Source: Azospirillum lipoferum 4B
GTDB taxonomy: Bacteria; Pseudomonadota; Alphaproteobacteria; Azospirillales; Azospirillaceae
Assembly: GCF_000283655.1 (NCBI RefSeq)
Contig: NC_016587.1
Coordinates: forward strand, 124,001 to 188,000
DNA: 64,000 bases
Direction: 5' to 3'
This document shows, piece by piece, positions 4,992 to 16,603 of this stretch (position 1 is the stretch's first letter; the number at the start of each line of letters is the position of its first letter). The notes under the pieces were generated by a model. The model was not told where the DNA came from. It saw only the letters and a program-made list of their open reading frames with translations, and made no database searches. The translations under genes were made by a program, and so were the position numbers.

Positions 4992-6383
4992 ATGAGTTTC
5001 CTGATCTGCGTGGGAGCGCTCGCGTTCCTGATGCTGGTCGCCTATCGGGGCTTCAGCGTCATCCTTTTTGCGCCCATCGCGGCGATGGGTGCCGTGCTGC
5101 TGACCGATCCGTCCGCCGTGCCGCCCATCTTCACCGGCCTGTTCATGGACAAGATGGTCGGCTTCGTGAAGCTGTACTTCCCGGTCTTCCTGCTGGGCGC
5201 GGTATTCGGCAAGGTGATCGAGCTGTCCGGCTTCTCCAAGTCGATCGTCTCGGCCGTCATCAAGCTGGTCGGGCGCGAGCGTGCTGTGACCTCCATCGTG
5301 CTGGTCTGCCTGCTGCTGACCTATGGCGGCGTGTCGCTGTTCGTCGTGGTCTTCGCCGTCTATCCCTTCGCGGCGGAGATGTTCCGGCAGAGCGACATCC
5401 CCAAGCGCCTGATCCCCGGCGTGATCGCGCTCGGCGCCTTCACCGTCACCATGGACGCGCTGCCGGGCACGCCGCAAATCCAGAACATCATCCCCACCAC
5501 CTTCTTCAAGACCGATGCCTATGCCGCGCCCTGGCTGGGCGTGATCGGCTCGATCTTCATCCTGGCGCTGGGGCTGCTCTATCTGGAATGGCGCGTGCGC
5601 TCGGCCATCGCGCGGGGCGAGGGCTACGGCAGCGGCCACAGCAACGAACCGGAGCCGGTCGCCTCGGAAGCGCTGCCGAACCCGATCCTGGCCCTGTCGC
5701 CGCTGGTCGCCGTCGGCGTGCTGAACAAGCTGTTCACCATGGGCATCCCCGGCATCTACGGCACCACCAGCGAGGTGGCGCTTACCCCCGGCGCCAAGCC
5801 GCTGGTGACGCAGGTCTCCTCCGTCGCCGGCATCTGGGCGGTGGAAGGGGCTCTGCTCTGCGGCATCCTGATGGTGCTGGCCTTCGCCTGGAAGCCGGTG
5901 TCCCAGCGCTTCGCCGACGGAACCAAGGCCGCCATCGGCGGGTCGCTGCTGGCCGCCATGAACACGGCGTCGGAATACGGCTTCGGCGCGGTGATCGCGG
6001 CGCTGCCGGGCTTTCTGATCATCCGCGACGCGCTGGCCGCCATCCCCAACCCGCTGGTGAACGAGGCGGTGACCGTCACCGCGCTGGCCGGCATCACCGG
6101 TTCGGCGTCGGGCGGCATGAGCATCGCGCTGGCAGCCATGGCCGACCAGTTCATCGCCGCCGCCAACGCCGCCGGCATCCCGATGGAGGTGCTGCATCGT
6201 GTCGCCTCCATGGCCAGCGGCGGCATGGACACCTTGCCGCATAACGGCGCGGTCATCACGTTGCTGGGCGTCACCGGGCTGACGCACCGGCAGTCCTACG
6301 GCGACATCTTCGCCGTCACCTGCATCAAGACGCTGGCGGTCTTCTTCGTGATCGCCGTCTATTACCTGACCGGGATCGTCTGA
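4992..6383 (+). CDS. GntP-family permease, probable D-3-hydroxybutyrate/short organic acid transporter
   Basis: This 463-residue integral membrane protein has about 12 hydrophobic segments. It shows GntP-family features: an LLTYGGVSLFVVVFAVYP segment, MDALPGTPQIQNIIPTTFF, and the C-terminal SMASGGMDTLPHNGAVITLL. These match the hydroxybutyrate-permease branch better than gluconate permeases. The next gene starts two bases after the stop, and the CoA-transferase and dehydrogenase that follow specify ketone-body catabolism. The start at 4992 follows a GAGGGAGC ribosome-binding region. Substrate is inferred from context. Confidence 0.87.
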   Translation: MSFLICVGALAFLMLVAYRGFSVILFAPIAAMGAVLLTDPSAVPPIFTGLFMDKMVGFVKLYFPVFLLGAVFGKVIELSGFSKSIVSAVIKLVGRERAVTSIVLVCLLLTYGGVSLFVVVFAVYPFAAEMFRQSDIPKRLIPGVIALGAFTVTMDALPGTPQIQNIIPTTFFKTDAYAAPWLGVIGSIFILALGLLYLEWRVRSAIARGEGYGSGHSNEPEPVASEALPNPILALSPLVAVGVLNKLFTMGIPGIYGTTSEVALTPGAKPLVTQVSSVAGIWAVEGALLCGILMVLAFAWKPVSQRFADGTKAAIGGSLLAAMNTASEYGFGAVIAALPGFLIIRDALAAIPNPLVNEAVTVTALAGITGSASGGMSIALAAMADQFIAAANAAGIPMEVLHRVASMASGGMDTLPHNGAVITLLGVTGLTHRQSYGDIFAVTCIKTLAVFFVIAVYYLTGIV

Positions 6384-6385
6384 CC

Positions 6386-7045
6386 ATGAAGAACAAACTC
6401 GTTTCCCTGGAAGAGGTCGTCTCGCGCATTCCCGACGGCGCTTCCCTGCTGATCGGCGGCTTCATGGCCGTCGGCGGCCCCAGCCGGCTGGTGGACGAAC
6501 TGATCCGCCAGGGCAAGCGCGACCTGACCATCATCGCCAACGACACCGCCCGGCCCAACAACGGCCTGGGCAAGCTGGTGGTGGAAAAGCTGGTGCGCCG
6601 CGTCGTCACCAGCCACATCGGGCTGAACCCCGAGACGCAGAAGCAGATGATCGCCGGCGACATCGAGGTGGAGTTGGTGCCGCAGGGTACGCTGGCCGAG
6701 CGCATCCGCGCCGGCGGCGTCGGCCTGGGCGGCGTCCTGACCCCCACCGGCGTCGGCACGATTGTGGAGGAGGGCAAGCGCACGGTCGAGATCGACGGCG
6801 TCACCTACCTGCTGGAGACACCGATCAAGGCCGACTTCGCGCTGGTCGCCGCCAAGCAGGCCGACCTGTACGGCAACCTGACCTACGCGCTGACCGCGCG
6901 CAACTTCAACCCGCTGATGGCGATGGCCGGCGCCACCGTGATCGCCGAGGCCGAGGACATCCTGCCGGTCGGCTGCATCCCGCCCGACGCGGTGATGACG
7001 CCGTCGGTTCTGGTCGACCACATCGTCACCGCAACGCCGCGCTGA
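6386..7045 (+). CDS. atoD: 3-oxoacid (acetoacetate) CoA-transferase subunit A
   Basis: The 219-residue alpha subunit of a family I CoA-transferase works with the next gene to move CoA onto acetoacetate. Visible family features are DGASLLIGGFMAVGGP near the N-terminus, NGLGKLVVEKLVRRVVTSHIGLNPETQ, the GTLAERIRAGGVGLGGVLTPTGVGT region, and KADFALVAAKQADLYGNL. It starts two bases after the permease stop, so translational coupling is likely. The symbol follows Escherichia coli AtoD; a ScoA name would be equally apt. Confidence 0.9.
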   Translation: MKNKLVSLEEVVSRIPDGASLLIGGFMAVGGPSRLVDELIRQGKRDLTIIANDTARPNNGLGKLVVEKLVRRVVTSHIGLNPETQKQMIAGDIEVELVPQGTLAERIRAGGVGLGGVLTPTGVGTIVEEGKRTVEIDGVTYLLETPIKADFALVAAKQADLYGNLTYALTARNFNPLMAMAGATVIAEAEDILPVGCIPPDAVMTPSVLVDHIVTATPR

Positions 7046-7062
7046 TCGGGGAGTATTGAGCC

Positions 7063-7710
7063 ATGGATGAAAAGACCCTGATCGCCAAGCGCGTCGCGCT
7101 GGAACTGATGGACGGCGACCTCGTCAACTTGGGAATCGGCCTGCCGACCCTGGTCGCCCGCTATGTCCCCGCCGGACGCCATGTGTTCTTCCAGTCGGAG
7201 AACGGCATCGTCGGCATGTCCGGCCCGATCACCGGGGCGGAGAACCACGACCTGACCGATGCCGGCGGTTCGCCCATCTCGGCCCTGCCGGGGGCGGCGT
7301 CCTTCGACAGCGCCTTCTCCTTCGGGCTGATCCGCGGCGGCCATCTGGACGTCACCGTGCTCGGCGGCCTGCAGGTGGACCGTGAAGGACGTCTCGCCAA
7401 CTGGATGGTGCCGGGCAAGATGGTGCCGGGCATGGGCGGGGCGATGGATCTGGTCACCGGCGCCCGCCGGGTGATCGTCGCCATGCAGCACAGCGCCAAG
7501 GGCGAACCGAAGATCGTCGAGCGATGCGCGCTGCCGCTGACCTCGGTCCGCCGGGTCGACCTGGTGGTGACCGACCTCGCCGTCATCGAGCCGACCGACG
7601 CCGGCCTCGTCTTGAAGGAAACCGCCCCCGGTGTCACCGTGGAGCAGGTGATCGCCAACACCGGGTGCGAACTGATCGTCGCTCCGGATCTCCGTCCCAT
7701 GCCGCTCTAA
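7063..7710 (+). CDS. atoA: 3-oxoacid (acetoacetate) CoA-transferase subunit B
   Basis: The 215-residue beta subunit carries the catalytic glutamate in FFQSENGIVG (E46), which forms the glutamyl-CoA thioester. The GIGLPTLV oxyanion loop lies at residues 24-31. The segment MVPGKMVPGMGGAMDLV and the C-terminal VEQVIANTGCELIVAPD are typical. With AtoD it activates acetoacetate produced by the downstream dehydrogenase. The spacing of 17 bp from atoD includes a GGGGAG ribosome-binding site. Confidence 0.92.
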   Translation: MDEKTLIAKRVALELMDGDLVNLGIGLPTLVARYVPAGRHVFFQSENGIVGMSGPITGAENHDLTDAGGSPISALPGAASFDSAFSFGLIRGGHLDVTVLGGLQVDREGRLANWMVPGKMVPGMGGAMDLVTGARRVIVAMQHSAKGEPKIVERCALPLTSVRRVDLVVTDLAVIEPTDAGLVLKETAPGVTVEQVIANTGCELIVAPDLRPMPL

Positions 7711-7722
7711 GGGTAAAGAACA

Positions 7723-8511
7723 ATGACCAATCTGAAGGGGAAGGCCGCGCTCGTCACTGGGTCTACCAGCGGGATCGGCCTTGGAATCGCACGGCAGCTT
7801 GCAGGCCAGGGTGCCGACCTGATGCTGAACGGCTTCGGCGACACCGGCTACATCGCCGAACTGTGCCAGTCGCTGTCGGCGGAGTTCGGCGTGCGCGTCG
7901 CCCACAATGGCGCCGACATGTCGAAGCCGGAGGAGATCGAGGCGATGGTCGCCGCCACCGAGGCGGCTTATGGCCGGCTGGACGTGCTGGTCAACAATGC
8001 TGGCATCCAGCATGTGGCGCCGGTCGATGCCTTCCCGGTGGAACGCTGGGACGCGGTGATCGCCATCAACCTGTCGGCCGTCTTCCACGGCACCCGTGCG
8101 GCATTGCCGGGCATGAAGGCGCGCGGCTGGGGCCGGGTCATCAACATCGCGTCGGTGCACGGCCTGGTGGCGTCGGTCAACAAGTCGGCCTATGTCGCCG
8201 CCAAGCACGGTGTGATTGGCCTGACCAAGGTGACGGCGCTGGAACTTGCGGAGACCAACATCACCTGCAACGCCATCTGCCCGGGCTGGGTGCTGACGCC
8301 GCTGGTGCAGAAGCAGATCGATGCGCTGGCTGCCTCGCGCGACCTGTCGGTGGAGGAGGCCGGACGTGAGCTGCTCAGTGAGAAGCAGCCGTCGAAATCC
8401 TTCGTCACCCCGGAACAGCTGGGTGAACTGGCGCTGTTCCTGTGCTCGGAAGCTGCCGGCAACATGCGCGGGGCCGCGCTGACCATGGACGGCGGCTGGA
8501 CCGCCCAGTAA
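7723..8511 (+). CDS. bdhA: D-3-hydroxybutyrate dehydrogenase (SDR family)
   Basis: This 262-residue classical short-chain dehydrogenase oxidises 3-hydroxybutyrate to acetoacetate with NAD+. It has the nucleotide motif TGSTSGIG (12-19), NNAG (91-94), and the catalytic triad S144, Y157 and K161. The QKQIDALAASRDLS and LLSEKQPSKSFVTPEQLGELALFLCSE segments are specific to the hydroxybutyrate dehydrogenase subgroup. It ends the operon, giving the chain: import, oxidation, CoA activation. A thiolase gene is not present nearby. Confidence 0.93.
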   Translation: MTNLKGKAALVTGSTSGIGLGIARQLAGQGADLMLNGFGDTGYIAELCQSLSAEFGVRVAHNGADMSKPEEIEAMVAATEAAYGRLDVLVNNAGIQHVAPVDAFPVERWDAVIAINLSAVFHGTRAALPGMKARGWGRVINIASVHGLVASVNKSAYVAAKHGVIGLTKVTALELAETNITCNAICPGWVLTPLVQKQIDALAASRDLSVEEAGRELLSEKQPSKSFVTPEQLGELALFLCSEAAGNMRGAALTMDGGWTAQ

Positions 8512-8579: not shown

Positions 8580-8960
8580 TCAGCTTTCGCTGGTGGCGGG
8601 AATCGTATCGAAGGGGGTGGCGATGAACGGGCGGCCCTGGCCATGGCCGGCACGGGCGTGGCCGCGCTCGGTCGCAGCCTGCCGGAAATAGCCGACCACG
8701 AATACGCGCAGAGCGTTCGCGAGCGATACGCCGGCCTGGGAGGCGCGACGGCCCTGCTGCTCCATGCGATCACGGACATCCCCGCACAGCTCTTCCACCG
8801 TCAGGTCTTCCCGCTGGCAGATCTCATCGAGCCCCTCCCAGTAGGACGGCTCCAGACGGATGGACACATCGCGTCCAGACAATTTCAGCGTGCGAAGGGC
8901 CAGCGAAGCAACACCCGTGGATTGATCAATGCGAGACCTGTTGTTCCCGTCGCTCGACAT
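8580..8960 (-). CDS. Ribbon-helix-helix (RHH_4-type) protein
   Basis: The 126-residue protein has the RHH_4 layout: LRTLKLSGRDVSIRLEPSYWEGLDEICQREDLTVEELC, i.e. one beta strand (SIRLEP) and helices, then ANALRVFVVGYFR. A low-complexity polar tail follows (HARAGHGQGRP). The family is common in Rhodospirillales, and its DNA targets are mostly unknown. The start was set at MSSDGNN; upstream codons to 9026 have no clear ribosome-binding site. The plus-strand gene at 12350 encodes a shorter relative. It lies convergent to bdhA. Confidence 0.7.
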   Translation of the reverse strand: MSSDGNNRSRIDQSTGVASLALRTLKLSGRDVSIRLEPSYWEGLDEICQREDLTVEELCGDVRDRMEQQGRRASQAGVSLANALRVFVVGYFRQAATERGHARAGHGQGRPFIATPFDTIPATSES

Positions 8961-9067
8961 GCTCTTAAATCCTCGTCCTGCCCGTGCGATTGCCCCCAAC
9001 GCGCGCCCACTATAACGCGACCACAACCGGCTTTGGGAACAAAACTTTCGGCAGGTAAGGATTCTCC

Positions 9068-9778
9068 CTAGGGAGTCCGTTCGGGATCTCCGGCCATATC
9101 CTTTAGTAGAGCCAGATCATTGATGACAATAAAACCTTTGGCATATGTCACTGCGCCAGTCCTGCGCAGGGCGCCGAGACACTTGTTCACCATTTCGCGG
9201 GTTACACCCAGCATGTTGGCGAGTGCTTCCTGCGACAGCGGCAAGGTCAGGCGCAGGCCGGCCGCAGTCGGCTGTCCGTAGCTGTCCGACAGCAGCAGCA
9301 ACCTGCGGGCGAGACGGCGCGGGACATCGTGGAAGACGGCATCCTCGATGTTCTCGGACACCCAGCGCAGCCGGTCGCACAGGACCACCATCATGCTGGT
9401 GCACAGGCGCGGGTGGCGTTCCAGGAACGGGATGAAGTCGGCGCGGTCGATGCGGTAAAGTTCGACCGGGCGCAAGGCGACGGCGGCGGCCGTGCGTTCG
9501 CGGCCGTCGATCAGGCCGATTTCTCCCAGGACGTCGCCGGCCTCCAGGATGTTCAGCAGCATGGTCTTGCCATCCGCCGAGGAGGTCCGGATGGCGATCT
9601 GGCCTTTCAGCACGGCGAACAGGCTGTCGCCGGGATCGCCCTTGTCGAAGATGATCTGGTCGGCATCGAAGCGGACGATACGGCCCAGCCCCAGCATTTC
9701 CGCCATTTGCCCGGCGTCGAGCTCTCCAAGCAGGCGGTTGCGCCTCAGCACCGCCGCCACATCCATGGGCGCGTTCAT
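9068..9778 (-). CDS. Crp/Fnr-family transcriptional regulator
   Basis: A cyclic-nucleotide-binding-type sensor domain covers residues 10-130 (GDPGDSLFAVLKGQIAIR, GEIGLIDGRERTAAAVA). A long dimerisation helix follows, then a C-terminal winged helix with recognition helix LSQEALANMLGVTREMVNKCL. There are no N-terminal Fnr cysteines, so it is not an oxygen-sensing Fnr. The family members closest in appearance bind cAMP or an unknown nucleotide. The ATG at 9778 follows GGACGG; an upstream ATG at 9802 lacks a ribosome-binding site. It is last in a minus-strand run behind tfuA, 77 bp downstream. A CRP-like box lies upstream of the run's first gene. Confidence 0.88.
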   Translation of the reverse strand: MNAPMDVAAVLRRNRLLGELDAGQMAEMLGLGRIVRFDADQIIFDKGDPGDSLFAVLKGQIAIRTSSADGKTMLLNILEAGDVLGEIGLIDGRERTAAAVALRPVELYRIDRADFIPFLERHPRLCTSMMVVLCDRLRWVSENIEDAVFHDVPRRLARRLLLLSDSYGQPTAAGLRLTLPLSQEALANMLGVTREMVNKCLGALRRTGAVTYAKGFIVINDLALLKDMAGDPERTP

Positions 9779-9855
9779 CCATCCGTCCCGGCACCGTTTC
9801 ATGCCTGGGCGACGACAACCGCCACCCCGACGCGATCAGTCTACCGAAAACGCAC

Positions 9856-10608
9856 TTACATCGCGAGGGGGGCAGCGTCGCGCAGGGCACGTTCCCACAG
9901 GACGGTCCGTTCGAAATGGAAACGGACTTCCTGCATCGCATCATCGCCGGTCGGACGGCCCAGGCGCCGCGCCATGCTGCGCAGCATTGCCTTGGCATCG
10001 TCTCGCTTCTGGTCGAAGCGGCCCTGGGGCAGCCAGCTGCGGAAAGCCGCCAGCTCTTCCGCCGGCAGGCCGATGTCGCCACCCAGCCGCAGCATCCGGC
10101 CATAGCCGCGCTCGCGGTAGGGCAGTTCCTTGGCGATGGATTCCAGGCGCAAGGCCGTGCCCGCGGCCAGGACCCGGTCGGTCACCGCGTCGGACAGGGT
10201 GCGGCGGATGTTGACCATCGCCTCCGACAGGGCGGTGTAGCCCAGCTCGGCCGGGCCGTGGATCACCGCAACCTCGTCGTCGTCCTCCAGCCGGCCGTCG
10301 CGGAACGCCTCGAAGATGGCGCCGACGCCGATCATGCCGAAGGGATGCAGCTCCGCCGCGCGCAGCGCTCCCATGCTGGAGGCACCGAACACAGGGATGC
10401 CGGCATGGATAGCGTAGAGGATTTCCTTGTGCCAGACCGACGGCACGCTTTCGAAGAAGCCGTCGACGATGCCGATGGCTGCCGGCTTCTCCGCACACAG
10501 CCGCAACACGTCGCCTTGGGCGACCGGTGGCAGATAGGTAGCGTCCAGCTCCAGCACCGCATCCTCGCGCGGCAGGGTGGGGCCGAGGAAGACATAGACG
10601 CCGCTCAT
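9856..10608 (-). CDS. tfuA: TfuA-like protein (YcaO partner)
   Basis: The 250-residue protein has the TfuA core: VYVFLGPTLP at the N-terminus, AIGIVDGFFESVPSVWHKEILYA, and GASSMGALRAAELHPFGMIGVG. It overlaps the ycaO start-stop junction by four bases. TfuA proteins were first seen in trifolitoxin production and later shown to assist YcaO enzymes in thioamide formation, for example on methyl-coenzyme M reductase, probably by supplying sulfur. Here it should act on the same substrate as the YcaO. The C-terminal 60 residues are helical and less conserved. The overlap indicates coupled translation. Confidence 0.85.
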   Translation of the reverse strand: MSGVYVFLGPTLPREDAVLELDATYLPPVAQGDVLRLCAEKPAAIGIVDGFFESVPSVWHKEILYAIHAGIPVFGASSMGALRAAELHPFGMIGVGAIFEAFRDGRLEDDDEVAVIHGPAELGYTALSEAMVNIRRTLSDAVTDRVLAAGTALRLESIAKELPYRERGYGRMLRLGGDIGLPAEELAAFRSWLPQGRFDQKRDDAKAMLRSMARRLGRPTGDDAMQEVRFHFERTVLWERALRDAAPLAM

Positions 10609-11876
10609 GCCGCCTTCTCCATGGCTTGGGTGCCGAGTACACGCAGGCCGCGTTCGCCCAGCAGGTAATCGGGGGATTCGTCGGCACCCTCCAACCCAGG
10701 CACGACGACGCGGACGACGGGGATGCCGAATTCAGGCTTGGTCAGGTCGACCGCCACCGCCTCTTCGATGCCGACGGCGCGCAGCCGGTCGAGCTGGTGG
10801 GCGAGATCGGCCTCGATCGTGGGGGCGGTGCTGGTCGGGCAGTGACGGAAGGAGCGCCGGCCGGCGCCATCGGCGATCATCGCCTTCCAGCGGGCATGGT
10901 TGGCCGGGTCGAGGTGCCGTTCATATTCGGCGCGGGGCATGTCGTCGCGGGCGCCGGCAATGAAGGTCAGGCGGCTCTGCGCCGCTTCCGTCAGGGCGCG
11001 GGACAGGGCGATCTCGCGCGCCACATGGCAGCCCATGCCGGTGGCCGGGCGGATGGAGTGCTGGGGCAGATCCTCGCGCTCGACAATGCGGCAGAGGAAG
11101 GCGGGCAGGCCGATGTCGCTGGTGGTCTCCCACACGCCGACGGCGACGCCGGCGGCATCGAACCGGTCGATCAGCGAGCGGCAGACCGGATCGTCGATGC
11201 TGTCCAGGTCGATGCGGGTTGCCCCCTGGGTGGCGGGGTCCTGCAGGCGCCACAGGGTGGTTGCGTCGCGCTCCACCAGTTCGGTGACGGCGTGGCTGAT
11301 CGCCTCCACCTTGTGGTTGCCCGACGCCAGCCCGTTGGAGCCGGCAAGGAAGGCGCCGTGGCCGGGGGCCATCGGCACGGTGAAATTCAGGTGGACCATC
11401 TCGAACGGAACCCATTTCGGGCCGCCGTTCAGCAGATCCTGGCCCTCGATCCACAGGATGGGGCTGTTGGGATTGAAGCAGCCGGTCGACAGCCGGGGCA
11501 GGCGGCTGACGTCCACCACCGGGTGGGTCCAGCGCAGCTCCTCGAAGCTGGCGAACTTCAGCGGCAGGGTGATCCGTTCGGCGTGATAGCTTTCGATCGA
11601 TTCCATGACCCCCGACGCCTTGGCGGCGGCGAGCGTCACCCCCTTGCCCTGCGACACCGAGATGGAACGCGAGTTCGGCCGCGTCACCATCACCACCGGA
11701 ATGCCGACGGCATCCAGCCCGGTGACGTTGGCGACCCGGGTGATCCCCATTATCGGCAGGAACGGGGTGACCCGAGCCAGGGTCTGTTCGGGGGCCATGA
11801 CCCGGTGGGTGCCGACCGTGTGGGCCTTCACCGCATCCGAAACGGAGGCTTTGACATCGAGCAGATCGAAGGGCAT
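10605..11876 (-). CDS. YcaO-domain ATP-dependent peptide cyclodehydratase/thioamide synthetase
   Basis: The 423-residue protein keeps the YcaO ATP and Mg site: SQGKG (75-79), MESIES (E92, E95), NGLASGN (181-187), and EAISHAVTELVERDA with E191, E199, E202 and D204. YcaO enzymes phosphorylate a peptide backbone amide to form azolines, amidines or, with TfuA, thioamides. The C-terminus does not end in the Pro-rich PxPxP run of many azoline-forming YcaOs. It is preceded by a 65-residue peptide gene on the same strand and is fused by overlap to tfuA. Substrate is unknown; the small peptide is the main candidate. Confidence 0.88.
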   Translation of the reverse strand: MPFDLLDVKASVSDAVKAHTVGTHRVMAPEQTLARVTPFLPIMGITRVANVTGLDAVGIPVVMVTRPNSRSISVSQGKGVTLAAAKASGVMESIESYHAERITLPLKFASFEELRWTHPVVDVSRLPRLSTGCFNPNSPILWIEGQDLLNGGPKWVPFEMVHLNFTVPMAPGHGAFLAGSNGLASGNHKVEAISHAVTELVERDATTLWRLQDPATQGATRIDLDSIDDPVCRSLIDRFDAAGVAVGVWETTSDIGLPAFLCRIVEREDLPQHSIRPATGMGCHVAREIALSRALTEAAQSRLTFIAGARDDMPRAEYERHLDPANHARWKAMIADGAGRRSFRHCPTSTAPTIEADLAHQLDRLRAVGIEEAVAVDLTKPEFGIPVVRVVVPGLEGADESPDYLLGERGLRVLGTQAMEKAA

Positions 11877-11919
11877 CGCGGCTTGTCCGGGGCGGAGGAA
11901 AATCGAGAGGACGCGTCCC

Positions 11920-11993
11920 GTTCCCGGGTCCGTGGCCGATCAGCACCTGAAGCGGTGCTGGTGGCCACGGTCCGAAGAACCGGAACCGGGAAC
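11920..11993 (-). promoter_or_regulatory. Large intercistronic hairpin between peptide gene and ycaO
   Basis: Nested complementary arms are GTTCCCGG/CCGGGAAC (outer), CCGTGGCC/GGCCACGG (middle) and CAGCACC/GGTGCTG (inner), around a short loop. The structure starts five bases after the peptide stop. No T-tract follows on the minus strand, so it is more likely an attenuator or mRNA-stabilising structure than a full terminator. Confidence 0.6.
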
Positions 11994-11997
11994 CCGA

Positions 11998-12195
11998 TCA
12001 GGCGCCCGGGGTGATGCTGTAACGGCCAGCCTCGTGATCGGCGGCATCGAAGGTGCCGCGGTCACCGGAGCGGACGAGATTGCGGACGGTCGACGCCTGG
12101 ACTTCGGCGATCTCGGTCACGCCCTGGGCGGAAACATTGTACAGACGGCCATCGGCGCCACGAACCATCGACGACTGGGACAGATTGAGCGACAT
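11998..12195 (-). CDS. Small peptide, candidate substrate of the YcaO-TfuA pair
   Basis: Sixty-five residues, beginning MSLNLSQSSM and ending GRYSITPGA. The start is fixed by AGGAGA nine bases upstream. It is rich in Ser, Thr, Gly and Ala, contains no Cys, and has a DGRLYN turn and several Gly pairs with small residues. I recognise no domain. It is the first gene of the ycaO-tfuA-crp run, separated from ycaO by a hairpin, as precursor peptides often are. That position makes it a precursor candidate, but an unrelated small conserved protein is equally possible on sequence alone. Confidence 0.6.
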   Translation of the reverse strand: MSLNLSQSSMVRGADGRLYNVSAQGVTEIAEVQASTVRNLVRSGDRGTFDAADHEAGRYSITPGA

Positions 12196-12243: not shown

Positions 12244-12254
12244 CTAACTTGCGC

Positions 12255-12270
12255 TGTGAAGTTTTTCACT
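12255..12270. promoter_or_regulatory. CRP-like operator in the divergent promoter region
   Basis: TGTGAAGTTTTTCACT fits TGTGA-N6-TCACA except for the last base. Its centre lies about 67 bp before the peptide start codon, between the minus-strand operon and the plus-strand RHH gene. The operon itself ends with a Crp/Fnr gene, so autoregulation is a reasonable inference. Confidence 0.5.
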
Positions 12271-12349
12271 TTGCGAACACCGCCCTTCGGATAACACAAC
12301 ACTTCAAGCTAGGTTTTCGGCCGTGGCTGCAGTTAGGGGGACCTCTGGG

Positions 12350-12637
12350 ATGCTGAACTCTGCCAACAAACAACGTGATTACCGGGCGGGCCACTTATCC
12401 AGCTTGATGGCTTGGCCTGCAATGTCGGTTCGCGTTGTATTGGTTGAAGACGGAGAGAGGCGTGTGCGTCTTGAAAATGCCGTGTGGGACGGGCTGGATG
12501 CCATCGCGCAAGCTGAAGGATTGCTAACTAAGCAATTGTGCGCGAAATTGGATGCACGACGCTCAAAGAGCGTGGACTTGAGTAGTGAAATCCGAAGCTT
12601 TGTTCTGGACTATTTTCGTGGAAACGACGCAATTTGA
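12350..12637 (+). CDS. Small ribbon-helix-helix (RHH_4-type) protein
   Basis: Ninety-five residues. The core RVRLENAVWDGLDAIAQAE followed by SSEIRSFVLDYFRG parallels the RHH_4 protein at 8580-8960 (SIRLEPSYWEGLDEIC and NALRVFVVGYFR). The ATG at 12350 follows AGGGGG; another in-frame ATG at 12422 would give just the domain. Base composition is lower in GC than its neighbours, as is the following 60 bp. It is divergent from the peptide-ycaO-tfuA operon and could be a local regulator. Confidence 0.6.
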   Translation: MLNSANKQRDYRAGHLSSLMAWPAMSVRVVLVEDGERRVRLENAVWDGLDAIAQAEGLLTKQLCAKLDARRSKSVDLSSEIRSFVLDYFRGNDAI

Positions 12638-12676: not shown

Positions 12677-13230
12677 TCATCCAATTGTAATTCGTTGATG
12701 GTCTGCATGTGTGGTGCGGATGGGCCAACTGCTGAATGTCTTCAGAAAATTCTCAGCGCGTGATGCCAACGACGTTTGAGAAGTGCTGTTAGCGATTTCC
12801 AGTCCATCGTTAGCAGCCTGCGAAGCTGCATCCATCTCGCCGGTGGTGGCAAGTGCCTCGGCATACCAAATCAGAACCTGGGGAACACGCCCCAGTGGGT
12901 GAAGTCGGCCATTTCCTCCACCTTGCTGCTGAAATAGTGCAAAGCTGTTTTCGAACATGGCGAATCCTGACTTGTGGTTCCCCGTCAGGACCGACGCATA
13001 TCCGATACCCCCCATGACTAAGGGAAGCAGCAGTGGGGCATGTATGGCGTGACCGACCGATAATGCCGCTTCCAGTGCGGGAATGCTGGCTTTCAACTGC
13101 CCGCAGATGATGTGCGTCCAACCCAGATGCGTCAGAGCGAACAGCCGTGAGAAAAGATGGTTGCTCTCCTCCGCGATCTCTACCGACCGGCGGCCGGTTT
13201 TGATGGCTTCATCGACTTGGCCCAATTCCG
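12677..13230 (-). pseudogene. C-terminal fragment of the cyclase/ATPase/TPR protein, cut off by an IS
   Basis: The frame reads AELGQVDEAIKTGRRSVEIAEES onward and contains several TPR-like helical pairs (ALTHLGWTHIICGQLKASIPALEAAL, LIWYAEALATTGEMDAASQAANDGLEIA). It has no start codon of its own other than a weak TTG. If the IS at 13235-14076 and one CTAG copy are removed, this frame joins the upstream fragment exactly, giving about 1026 residues. It is probably untranslated now. Confidence 0.85.
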
Positions 13231-13234
13231 CTAG

Positions 13235-14076
13235 GGCGTGTCGTCAGTTGAGCCAGATGACAGCCGACACGAGGTAAACAGCCGCCAAGAAAGTGCTGGC
13301 AAGCTTGTCGTATCGAGTTGCAATGGCTCGGAAGCCCTTCAGCTTGTTGAAGAATCGCTCGACGAGATTACGTTCGCGGTACAAGGCGAAATCGGTATCG
13401 CGGGCGATCAGCCGATTAGCCTTGGACGGGATGACGGGGACGATGTCGCGCTCCTTCAATGCGTCGATCAGGGCGTCGCCATCATAGGCCTTGTCGGCGA
13501 TGAGGGCCTGCGGCTCGACCGCGTCGAGCAGAGGGGCGGCTTGGCTGAAGTCAGAGGCCTGACCGGGGGTCAGGGAGATCGCCACCGGGTTGCCCAAGGC
13601 GTCCACGATGGCATGGATCTTCGTCGTCAGCCCCCCTCGTGATCGGCCGATGGCTTGGCAGGCGCCCCCTTTTTTCGCGCCCCGGCGCTGTGCTGGTGGG
13701 CGCGGACGATGGTCGCGTCGAGCATCATGTACTCGTTGTCGCTGTCCTCGGCCAGGGCTTTGAAAAGGCGCTCGAACACCCCGCTCTCGCACCAGCGGCG
13801 GTAGCGGCGGTGGGTGTTCTTCCAATCCCCGAACCGGGTGGGCAGGTCGCGCCAGGGAATGCCAGCCCGGTAACGGTACAGCACCGCCTCGACGAACAGG
13901 CGGTTGTCCTTCGCCGTCCCCCCGACATGGCCTACCCGCCCCGGCAGAAAATCCTGGACCCGCTCCCACTGATCGTCGCGCAAAGCATAGCGTCGCATTC
14001 GTCGGCCCTCCCGTCAGCCGACCCTCTATGAATCACGCATTCCTACCGCTGGGAATCCCATAACTGACGACACGCC
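13235..14076 (-). mobile_element. IS5-family (IS427-like) insertion sequence, 842 bp
   Basis: The element has 15-bp identical terminal inverted repeats GGCGTGTCGTCAGTT, and a transposase read in two overlapping frames. It is flanked on both sides by CTAG, the likely target duplication (13231-13234 and 14077-14080). It lies within a coding sequence and looks complete, so it may still be mobile. The size, frame arrangement and DDE-type C-terminus place it in the IS427 group of IS5. Confidence 0.88.
13244..13998 (-). CDS. IS5/IS427-type transposase made by programmed -1 frameshift
   Basis: Frame one starts at 13998 (MRRYALRDDQWERVQDFLPG) and contains the helix-turn-helix region and the first acidic DDE residue (MMLDATIVRAH). 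It ends at 13627. Frame two carries GGLTTKIHAIVDALGNP, IADKAYDGDALIDAL (second D) and NLVERFFNKLKGFRAIATRYDK (E), and stops inside the left inverted repeat. The overlap holds A_AAA_AAG followed by G-tract, a classic slippery site; a -1 shift there joins the frames. The product would be about 250 residues. Both halves look intact. Confidence 0.87.
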
Positions 14077-16603
14077 CTAGCCCTCTGGCCGCAAGACTGC
14101 CCATATGCACCCGCGCGACGGTCGCGAGACCATATCGGTCGTAAGGACGGGACGTCGAGAGCATGCGGGAGCCGTGCTCGAATGTCTTCAGCGCCTCGAC
14201 GAAAAGTCCCTTGTCCGTTTGCAAGCCGCCCAACCTGAACAGCAACTGCACGCGGGTGCGGCGGTCGTCCCGCTCGTCGAGTGCGGAAAGGCCGTCGCGG
14301 CAAAGAGCAAGGCCTTGGTCGAGATCGCCGAACGTCCACAGGAACGATGCCAGCATCGAGCAAGCGCGTGCATAGCGGATGAGATCGCCCGAATCGCGCG
14401 CCATGGCGATGGCCCGTTGCAGATGGTCATCCACGCCCATCGACCCCCGTGGCAGCAGGGATCGCGGAAGGGCGATCAGAAGATCGATCTGGCGTGCCGT
14501 GTTCCGTGGATGGTCCGGCAGCCGCCGCACGGCGGCCAATGCGTTGGCGTAATGCCGACTGGAGTCCTCCAGCTTGGAGCGGCCTTCCGCCTTTTCACCG
14601 GCGCGGCGGCCGAACAGGTGGGCGGCAGGCCAGCTTTCCGCCATGAAGGCGTGGTGGGCCAGCAGGTCCAGGCGGTTCGGCAGGTCGTGGTCGCGGCGGT
14701 GGCGCAGTGCCTCAAGCACGCGGGCATGCAGCGCCCGGCGGTCGGACTTGGTCAGGGTGGCGTAGGCGACCTCTTGGATCAGGGCATGCTTGAAGGAATA
14801 TTCCAGGTTGGGCAGCAGGCGGGTGCGCAGCACGAAGCCGGCGCGCTCGAGATAGGCCAGACAGTCCGACAGCTTCGTCATCGGCAGGCCGGTCAGCGCC
14901 TGGAGCAATCCGACGTCGAAGGTCGTGCCGATTACCGCCGCATTCATCAGCAGCCGGCGCCGTTCCAGCGTCATAAGGTCCATGCGCTCGGCCAGCAGGG
15001 CGTGCAGCGTGCGCGGCAGCTTGTGGACCACCAGCGGATCGATCAGCCGGTAGGCGCCCGGCGCGCCTTCGATGGCGTTGGAGGCTTCCAGCGTGCGCAG
15101 CACCTCTTCCAGATAGAGCGGAACGCCCTGGCAGCGGGCGGCGACCTGGGCCTTCAGCTCCACCAGCGACCAGTCCGGTCCCAGCCAATGGGCCAGGAAG
15201 CTCTGCACCTGTTCCGCCGACAGCATGCCCAATTCCATGCGCCGGCCGCCGGGCCGTCCATTCCATCCCTGTTCCTGCGACTCAGGACCCAGCGGCGGCG
15301 GTCGTCGGGTGGCGAGCAGCAGCAGTCGGGACCCTGAGCCCGGCAGCGCTTCGGCCAGCCGCTCGAGAAGCCGCACCATCACCGGCCGCGCCCAATGAGC
15401 ATCCTCGACAAGGACCAGCAACGGCCGGCCGACGACGCCATCCATCGCCTCGCCGGCAGGCTGGGCGCCGTCGCAGCGCCGCAGCGGAGCCGCCAGCTCC
15501 AGCGTCGCGCCCACCAGCCCCTCGATTCCCAGCGACAGGCGTTGTGCTGCGTCCAGGCCGGTCCACAGCCGGTCCAGTCCCGGCCGGCCGAACAGAGTGC
15601 GCACCGCGTCGCCGGCCAGCGAGCCGGAACGGCGCCCGGCGGCCTCGCAGACCCAGTCGATACCCTGCTCGCTGGCGCAGCCGGCCACCTGCTCCGCCAG
15701 GCTCAGTGCCACCGCCTCCAGATCGTCCGGATCGGCCAGCCGCCGGATCGGCATCTGCGGCCATTGCAGCAGGGTCCAGCGCCGGCTGCGCGGGTCGCGC
15801 AGGAATTCGCCGACGAGGCGCGACTTGCCGATCCCCGCCTCTCCCTGCAGCAGAAGCTGGACCGGCGTCCCGCCTTCCACCGCATCGGCCATCGCGAACA
15901 AAGCCGCCACTTCCTGCTCCCGGCCGACACAGGGGGCGGTGGTGGCCGACAACAGATCGGTGGCGGTGCGGCGCACGGCACGGGCCCCGTCGAGCAGGAA
16001 GGCGGGCATCGGCTCCACCTCCTCCGACAGGCGAAGGCTCCCCATCGGGCGCACCGCGACGCCGACCGGGATCAGGTCCAGCGTGTCGCGGGTGAGCTGG
16101 GCGGTGTCGGAGGCGGCGCGCTGCTGCAACTTGGCCGCCATATGCACGCATTCGCCGACCGCACGGTAATCGGTCCACAGGCCGTTGGTCACCACATGGG
16201 CCACCGCGTCGCCCGAGCTGATGCCGATGCGGATGTGGAAGAGCGGGCGGCCCTGTTCGTCGCGGGTGGCGCTGAGGATGTCCTGGGCAGCCAGGCAGGC
16301 GCGCAGGGCGTGGTCCTCCTTGGCGCCGGGAGCGCCGAAGGTCGCCAGGAAACCGTCGCCGAGCATCTGGGTCACCGTGCCCTCGAAACGCGGCACCGCC
16401 TCCGTCACGCGGTTCAGGATGGACAGGAGCAGATCGTCGGCGTCTTCCGGATCGCGGCCGGCAACCATGGCGGAGGAGCGGACGATGTCGACGAACATCG
16501 CCGTCACCACCTTGCGTTCGCGCGGCTTATCGGCGGACAGACGCGATGCATCCTGTCCGGGACCGCCGTCGTCGGTCGCTGTGCTCCACATGGCGTCCGC
16601 CAT
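14077..16603 (-). pseudogene. Class III adenylate/guanylate cyclase-AAA ATPase-TPR protein, N-terminal part (IS-interrupted)
   Basis: About 842 original codons remain before the IS, plus 14 foreign codons read into it. An N-terminal cyclase catalytic domain has FVDIVRSSAMV with D39 and LGDGFLATFG with D83, the metal-binding aspartates. An AAA/NACHT-like ATPase follows, with QGEAGIGKSRL (Walker A, about residue 255) and LLVLVEDAHWARP (Walker B-like). TPR helices run to the break. Such proteins are large cytosolic signal integrators. The truncated product may still be made with its catalytic domain intact, but it lacks the last 184 residues. Confidence 0.87.

Follow-up and report, generated by a model that had tools for sequence, protein, structure and literature searches.

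A 64,000-nucleotide stretch of the Azospirillum lipoferum 4B genome (assembly GCF_000283655.1, contig NC_016587.1, positions 124,001 to 188,000; hereafter the window, to which all coordinates refer) contains a minus-strand operon encoding a 65-residue peptide, a YcaO enzyme, a TfuA protein and a Crp/Fnr regulator. The best explanation, to which we give a probability of about 0.78, is an operon for a ribosomally synthesised and post-translationally modified peptide (RiPP) whose backbone would be thioamidated, with a local Crp as the switch. Briefly, the precursor would be recognised through its N-terminal leader (RGADGRLY), YcaO with ATP would activate a backbone amide of the core DHEAGRYSITPGA, TfuA would help to deliver sulfur to give one or more thioamides, and a host protease would free the core, a host enzyme being proposed because no dedicated protease or exporter was found among the genes scanned. 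The operon Crp would act on a GTGAA-N4-TTCAC palindrome with a cyclic nucleotide as the likely ligand, and a neighbouring cyclase/AAA/TPR protein would be the likely source or sensor of this nucleotide. The gene set, its conservation, the leader/core division, the core repetition and the palindrome were read from the sequences, while the chemistry, its site, the maturation, the ligand and the role are inferred, with little weight given to any single role.

The operon runs from the peptide gene (11998-12195) through ycaO (10605-11876; PF02624, 282.5 bits) and tfuA (9856-10608; PF07812, 158.9 bits) to crp (9068-9802; PF00027 cNMP_binding and PF13545 HTH_Crp_2), all on the minus strand. Consistent with a preliminary description of this DNA, all four open reading frames (ORFs) and their Pfam domains were recovered in a tightly packed arrangement, with the claimed four-base overlap of tfuA and ycaO and gaps of 121 bp between the peptide gene and ycaO and of 53 bp between tfuA and crp. 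The compact four-gene unit of that description was nevertheless incomplete, as the module also includes a cyclase gene and the palindrome. Both of these had been overlooked, and so had two ribbon-helix-helix genes and the division of the peptide into leader and core. Promoter, terminator and Rfam scans over the operon gave nothing useful.

The peptide was sought in 82 genomes of the family, 45 of them from the same genus (genomes and loci are cited below by G and L numbers). A homologue with an E-value of 7e-15 or better was present in 44 of the 45 Azospirillum genomes, and the only genome without it (G005) also lacks this YcaO. All four genes are clustered in 41 of these 44 loci; the three exceptions are L044, where the contig ends inside ycaO, and the split operons of G012 and G030, where the peptide (L068, L071) lies apart from a ycaO-tfuA-crp set located elsewhere in the genome (L091, L092). 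Across the family, this YcaO was found at E 1e-40 in 60 of the 82 genomes, 58 of which carry an R[GA]ADGRL peptide, namely the 44 Azospirillum genomes, all 11 genomes of a second genus (g11) and one each from three further genera. The ratio of nonsynonymous to synonymous variation (pN/pS) was 0.13 for close homologues of the window type and 0.17 for a second type. These values place the reading frame under purifying selection, and a chance ORF was rejected on this ground and by conservation. The peptide diverges faster than YcaO: compared with the window, L038-L047 and L050 are 57-62% identical in the peptide and 87-96% in YcaO. The peptide changes fall mostly in the linker and core.

Peptide homologues lying mostly far from ycaO and tfuA, named in the preliminary description as the pattern that would speak against the locus, were not encountered in a peptide-profile search of 385 genomes of the class. 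Thirteen genomes matched the profile; four matches with E below 1e-9, plus two weaker ones, adjoin this YcaO. The remaining seven were weak (E 5e-5 to 0.01), and their genomes gave no YcaO match at E 1e-60; we regarded them as chance matches, six of them lying inside frames of at least 251 codons. We likewise took as chance the peptide matches in G060, G062 and G080 (E 0.08-0.09, no YcaO at E 1e-40) and the second-place matches in G016, G018, G031, G032, G040 and G043, which fall in long frames. No credible family for the precursors was found in NCBIfam or Pfam, and a match of MBG_2 to the L181 precursor (4e-08; 34.2 bits, above the cut-off of 25) was provisionally put down to its repeats fitting the model by chance.

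Alignment of 50 peptides revealed a leader motif, RGADGRL(Y/F), of which RGADGRL is present in all 50, followed by a variable linker along which the sequences diverge. In the window peptide, this motif is RGADGRLY (residues 12-19, 12139-12162), and the peptide ends in one unit, the predicted core DHEAGRYSITPGA (residues 53-65, 12001-12039). An [AS][GAS]R step occurs in the core of 45 of the 50 peptides, the other five being from other genera; five aligned peptides from other genera also start a few residues before the motif and have different C-terminal ends. RGADGRLY lies upstream of YcaO in all 11 genomes of the sibling group g11, whose named members include Niveispirillum, and in several it precedes a short motif (e.g. 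SAEIY) in duplicate; G054 (L093) carries RAADGRLY. The absence of Cys, noted in the preliminary description, holds for the window peptide and not for the homologues of L035 and L047, where a single Cys lies a short way past the leader motif.

In more distant relatives the core is tandemly multiplied. The same leader is followed by six DHDAGRYMITPG-like units in L181, from a metagenome-assembled genome (MAG) titled Rhizobium sp. Q54, by DYDAGRMAIEA-type units in L184 (nine) and L185 (four), both Kiloniellales MAGs, and by 20 AGRWA units in L186 (an alphaproteobacterial MAG; the same as L144). Behind this leader, L146 has five DDSQRHAANFIG units and L180 (a Kiloniellales MAG) four DHASARVF(I/V)(E/D)PG units, the latter counted by eye and by a repeated 5-mer, as the repeat pattern used for the other loci matched none there. 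Since the same leader precedes tandem cores in relatives, we regard the window peptide, on sequence comparison, as belonging, with its single core, to a precursor family in which the number of cores varies. Leader and multiplied core together make it very probable that the peptide is a RiPP precursor.

The extent of the leader was assessed on 80 named loci, which we grouped into 32 from Azospirillaceae and 48 others; these loci share genomes with other locus sets (e.g. L186 = L144, L230 = L147), and counts are not additive between sets. The motif R[GA][AP]DGx[LI][YFW] was found within 1.5 kb upstream and on the same strand in 30/32 Azospirillaceae loci and 9/48 others. Two more of the others have it at a different place on that strand, and no locus has it on the opposite one. 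Motif-bearing loci outside the family include those of Anaerolineae (L204, L216), Verrucomicrobia or Chthoniobacterales (L215, L220), Fodinibius (L234) and Aestuariispira (L230). Near the YcaO relatives of L145, L148, L149 and L150, the DNA examined yielded no ORF with the leader motif. Judged by these matches, the leader recurs within this YcaO branch and is far from universal.

The module also has a CRP-type palindrome, GTGAA-N4-TTCAC (12254-12271), which occurs once in the window. It lies 58 bp ahead of the start codon of the peptide gene, in the interval that separates this gene from a divergent ribbon-helix-helix gene. All 50 loci compared have a GTGA-N6-TCAC palindrome that begins 75-164 bp upstream of the peptide, and their 542 kb contain 61 such sites, 51 of them within the 400-bp upstream stretches. 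In both split operons (G012, G030) it is present at the lone peptide and again at the lone ycaO-tfuA-crp set; because both halves carry it, co-regulation is well supported. CRP-type sites also precede the precursors of L144, L146, L180, L181, L184 and L185. Across the genus, GTGAANNNNTTCACAG is rare, with 0-3 matches per strand and genome, not all of them at the operon, and its reversed control has none.

The window Crp contains GEIGLIDGRERTA, which we take to be the cyclic-nucleotide pocket, and a recognition-helix segment TREMVNK; GE...R[TS]A is kept in 65 of 66 Crp proteins compared, and an R-E-x-x-N-(K/R) helix was found by pattern in 50 of the 66. The nearest solved relatives include 4byy and 3d0s, presumably GlxR and Mycobacterium tuberculosis CRP, whose recognition-helix segments are similar. 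We consider it likely that the operon is regulated by its own cluster Crp. The palindrome might instead serve a global CRP or the flanking ribbon-helix-helix proteins. Two such genes (PF13467), one divergent from the palindrome (12323-12637, plus strand) and one downstream of crp (8580-9026, minus strand), flank the operon, with same-place matches on both flanks in most Azospirillum loci, and two further genus sites (L257, L258) precede genes that look ribbon-helix-helix-like by eye. The palindrome has, however, the CRP spacing GTGA-N6-TCAC, the site is missing in 26 of 26 loci without a close cluster Crp (L150 and L153 having a Crp match of only 25%), crp follows tfuA in 41 of the 44 genus loci, and the Crp helix segment resembles that of the aligned GlxR-type proteins, which together leave this alternative rather unlikely.

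A second GTGAA-N4-TTCAC site was observed elsewhere in 14 lipoferum-type genomes (L240-L253, e.g. L240:5091). All 14 stretches contain a small ORF of the type ALRAIxxEAAxARSALCENELVIRLDNILAIAR, without a Pfam match, between genes that we assume to be hemolysin III-like and to carry a Hint domain; this ORF is a possible regulon member.

In 54 of 62 YcaO loci, the operon is preceded on the same strand by a gene for a class III nucleotide cyclase/AAA/TPR protein. The eight loci without it include two contig ends (L061, L108) and the split loci L068 and L071, where a cyclase match is found upstream of the lone peptide. The gene is also present in L184, L185 and L186, weakly matched in L230 and partial in L181, and its uncut relatives are mostly frames of about 980-1100 codons. 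In the window, this gene (12677-16603), a single frame in relatives, is interrupted by an insertion sequence (IS): the first 856 codons, with the cyclase and AAA parts, lie at 14033-16603, a TPR remainder corresponding to the C-terminal part of the gene in relatives at 12677-13225, and the transposase ORFs (DDE_Tnp_1) at 13244-13998 between them, all on the minus strand; the ORF at 13627-13998 has no match across the 44 genus loci. The Asp-bearing motifs, which in cyclases are the metal sites, are kept in six of the seven members compared. That the cyclase supplies the Crp ligand is a tentative proposal, for which we see somewhat less than an even chance. As the cluster Crp and the cyclase gene accompany the peptide in different families, its production may be conditional and governed by a local second messenger.

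Turning to the chemistry, residues 21-397 of YcaO align with its closest solved relative, MJ1094 (E 4.5e-38), including the SNGLASGN...ELVERDA and GKG...ESIE segments, and the ATP-site segments are among those aligned, in agreement with the earlier claim of intact ATP-site residues. The closest solved relative of TfuA is 6xp8 (E 1.8e-33). With MJ1094 as the nearest solved YcaO and an intact TfuA, backbone thioamidation is, by analogy, the probable chemistry of the pair. The available portions of the cited papers, on which all literature statements here rest, report that thiovarsolin B requires no more than precursor, YcaO and TfuA (PMC6511847), so the gene set present here would be enough in principle. 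They also describe a role of TfuA in sulfur delivery (PMC8939145) and Met, His and Ala preferences of TfuA-associated YcaO (PMC8120280); these preferences seem to fit the invariant residues of an alignment of ten YcaO proteins, as matched by eye. As a guess, the candidate site is the [AS]-[GAS]-R step of AGR-type cores, hence Gly57 of the window peptide, because this step is kept in cores and the thiovarsolin thioamide precedes Arg. Adjacent ycaO and tfuA genes with intact domains and a conserved precursor with separable leader and core place the locus among the YcaO-TfuA (TfuA-related) RiPP clusters. Of the thioamide-type locus first proposed, the operon, the precursor and the YcaO-TfuA pair thus stand, and the thioamide itself is likely by analogy.

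Alternatively, Ser/Thr or the backbone of the core could be converted by the pair to azolines or to a different YcaO product (amidine, macrolactam), with TfuA otherwise used. The window core does contain Ser60 and Thr62, each L180 unit has a Ser, and a SagD-type cyclodehydratase model matches YcaO at 132.4 bits, a score that is nevertheless under its cut-off of 219.25. No cyclodehydratase (C-protein) partner and no nitroreductase-type dehydrogenase were found among the Pfam-scanned window neighbours, so that the locus does not group with the azoline-type clusters (linear azol(in)e-containing peptides, or thiazole/oxazole-modified microcins). Moreover, the L184 units lack Thr and have Ser only at some unit borders, and the conserved part of AGR-type cores is [AS][GAS]R (45/50) rather than Ser, Thr or Cys. 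We consider such products improbable.

A host protein as the target (in the manner of McrA or uL16, with the peptide as adaptor or regulator), which the preliminary description had entertained, fits the kinship with MJ1094, the lack of a detected exporter or protease and the housekeeping-like presence in nearly all Azospirillum genomes, but it is very unlikely and was set aside on the repetition of the core in relatives: tandem cores behind the same leader in several lineages are best explained with the peptide itself as substrate, and the peptide diverges faster than YcaO, mainly in linker and core. A dedicated precursor is present, and the equivalog cut-offs of the McrA and uL16 types are not reached, the NCBIfam model of uL16-type YcaO giving 20.5 bits against a cut-off of 700.

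Several observations weigh against a thioamidated RiPP under Crp and cyclase control. Both YcaO and TfuA fall under the curated cut-offs of the NCBIfam McrA equivalog models, and the preference for a thioamide over an azoline comes from family resemblance. Two family genomes with a YcaO (G002, G082), in both cases a more distant one, lack the leader motif, which is also missing from the DNA examined around 37 of the 48 non-Azospirillaceae YcaO relatives. Because the reversed motif, on either strand, occurs in 6/32 Azospirillaceae loci (0/48 others), single leader-motif matches in GC-rich DNA are no proof by themselves. The core differs among leader-bearing precursors (SAEIYS-like or other ends in g11, RAVMAS in L230), and as it is not common to all of them, a leader family appears better supported than one shared product. 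One half of the palindrome reads AGTGAA instead of TGTGAA in the window and in L031-L035. Cyclases usually have Asn and Arg at two positions where most members covered here have His and Lys (exceptions L105, L144 and L146), so cyclase activity, as judged from sequence, is uncertain; finally, the cyclase link may not work in the window strain because the IS cuts the gene.

No exporter or RiPP protease travelling with the operon was detected when loci of about 10 kb were searched with the window genes, and Pfam scans of ten window neighbours and of ten flanking ORFs of L181 and L184 revealed neither. Within these scans, the earlier statement that no exporter or protease is present was borne out; a gene kept only in relatives or encoded elsewhere could have escaped them. 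A LON-substrate-binding-domain protein about 4 kb past the ycaO end in L181 and a JAB-domain RadC protein in L184 were read as ordinary neighbours. On the plus strand of the window, 4992-8511 encodes two coenzyme A (CoA)-transferase subunits and a short-chain dehydrogenase, after a protein without a Pfam match that we take to be permease-like; these neighbours adjoin the operon in 14 of 44 genus loci and were therefore not counted as part of the module. In L074 (G045), ycaO matches in two pieces (residues 1-336 and 335-414), which suggests a frameshift or a sequencing error.

Other precursor types were observed around related enzymes. Many Azospirillum genomes have a second YcaO-TfuA pair, about 43% identical (L098, L099, L100), with upstream ORFs containing many tandem Ala/Pro-rich repeats, e.g. 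PAAAMPATAN, and one of these ORFs has what we assume to be a Nif11-like start. Another type lies 3-5 kb downstream of YcaO relatives in L154, L155, L191, L198, L203, L206, L218, L236 and L239; these proteins of about 160-220 residues have an FGRxxxDL-like start, a YGFxFxGxYY-like body and C-terminal tandem repeats of 5-6 residues (VSGAR, GASVR, YSGGKA, SGKRV, DLVGRS). In L147/L230 (Aestuariispira), one precursor-like protein downstream of YcaO consists of a long leader, LRGADGRLYFVPG and ten SRAVM repeats.

The closest known systems are YcaO-TfuA RiPPs such as thiovarsolin, from which the present locus is set apart by its own leader, core and regulatory circuit. In the available portion of its description (PMC6511847), the Streptomyces varsoviensis var cluster shares the minimal set of precursor, YcaO and TfuA, a thioamide before Arg (Pro-Arg; here predicted before Arg) and a precursor family ranging from no repeat to five, against one core here and 4-20 in relatives. 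Its core is APR rather than DHEAGRYSITPGA, the distinction resting on core and gene set. Among the window ORFs scanned with Pfam (316-23953, not every ORF), none corresponds to the thiovarsolin heme oxygenase, amidinotransferase or ATP-grasp genes, and the present locus, which is alphaproteobacterial, has the cyclase/Crp circuit instead. A survey of TfuA-related RiPPs (PMC8120280) describes the same adjacency of ycaO, tfuA and a short ORF and reports many orphan clusters in Proteobacteria; its main text, as available, mentions neither Azospirillum, Crp nor repeat, and the cluster may be counted in its supplements. The McrA thioglycine system of methanogens (PMC5589413, in part) is alike in the closest solved YcaO, the TfuA partner and the overlapping genes; it acts on a protein and not on a short dedicated precursor. 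Escherichia coli YcaO (PMC13063428, in part) shows backbone thioamidation by this family in Pseudomonadota, with a ribosomal protein as substrate. A graspetide survey (PMC8939145) names both adenylate cyclases and YcaO-TfuA near branch 6 ATP-grasp enzymes; its clusters are complex and contain an ATP-grasp enzyme, none of which was found among the neighbours scanned here, and its available part describes no such leader, core or palindrome.

On the regulatory side, GlxR and M. tuberculosis CRP share with the cluster protein the Crp fold, the GE...R[TS] segment and a similar recognition-helix segment, and the CRP-type operator consensus is common to them and the palindrome. Unlike these two, the Crp described here is cluster-situated, with one main site per genome and a second in one clade. 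In the literature searched, which excluded subscription papers and supplements, we found no description of this gene set, leader, core and Crp-palindrome link, and no paper with both Azospirillum and TfuA.

By 2021, all known thioamidated RiPPs of the TfuA-YcaO type were actinobacterial, according to the available part of PMC8120280. The present locus adds a plant-associated genus with precisely predicted leader, core and operator and an unusual regulatory side. Precursors with 1, 4, 5, 6, 9 and 20 cores offer a natural series for the study of leader recognition and core processing by YcaO-TfuA, and the split operons of G012 and G030 a natural test of the regulon. More speculatively, and on balance doubtfully, a self-contained cyclic-nucleotide circuit (cyclase/AAA/TPR sensor, Crp and operator) might drive a thioamidated peptide that stays inside the producer, or that targets the producer or related cells, perhaps serving in signalling or as an effector of stress and not as an antibiotic, with core copy number as an evolutionary dial for yield or mixture. 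If true, this would be a near-universal function of Azospirillum built on a leader type, RG[AP]DGxLY, that also precedes YcaO relatives in Anaerolineae, Verrucomicrobia and Fodinibius.

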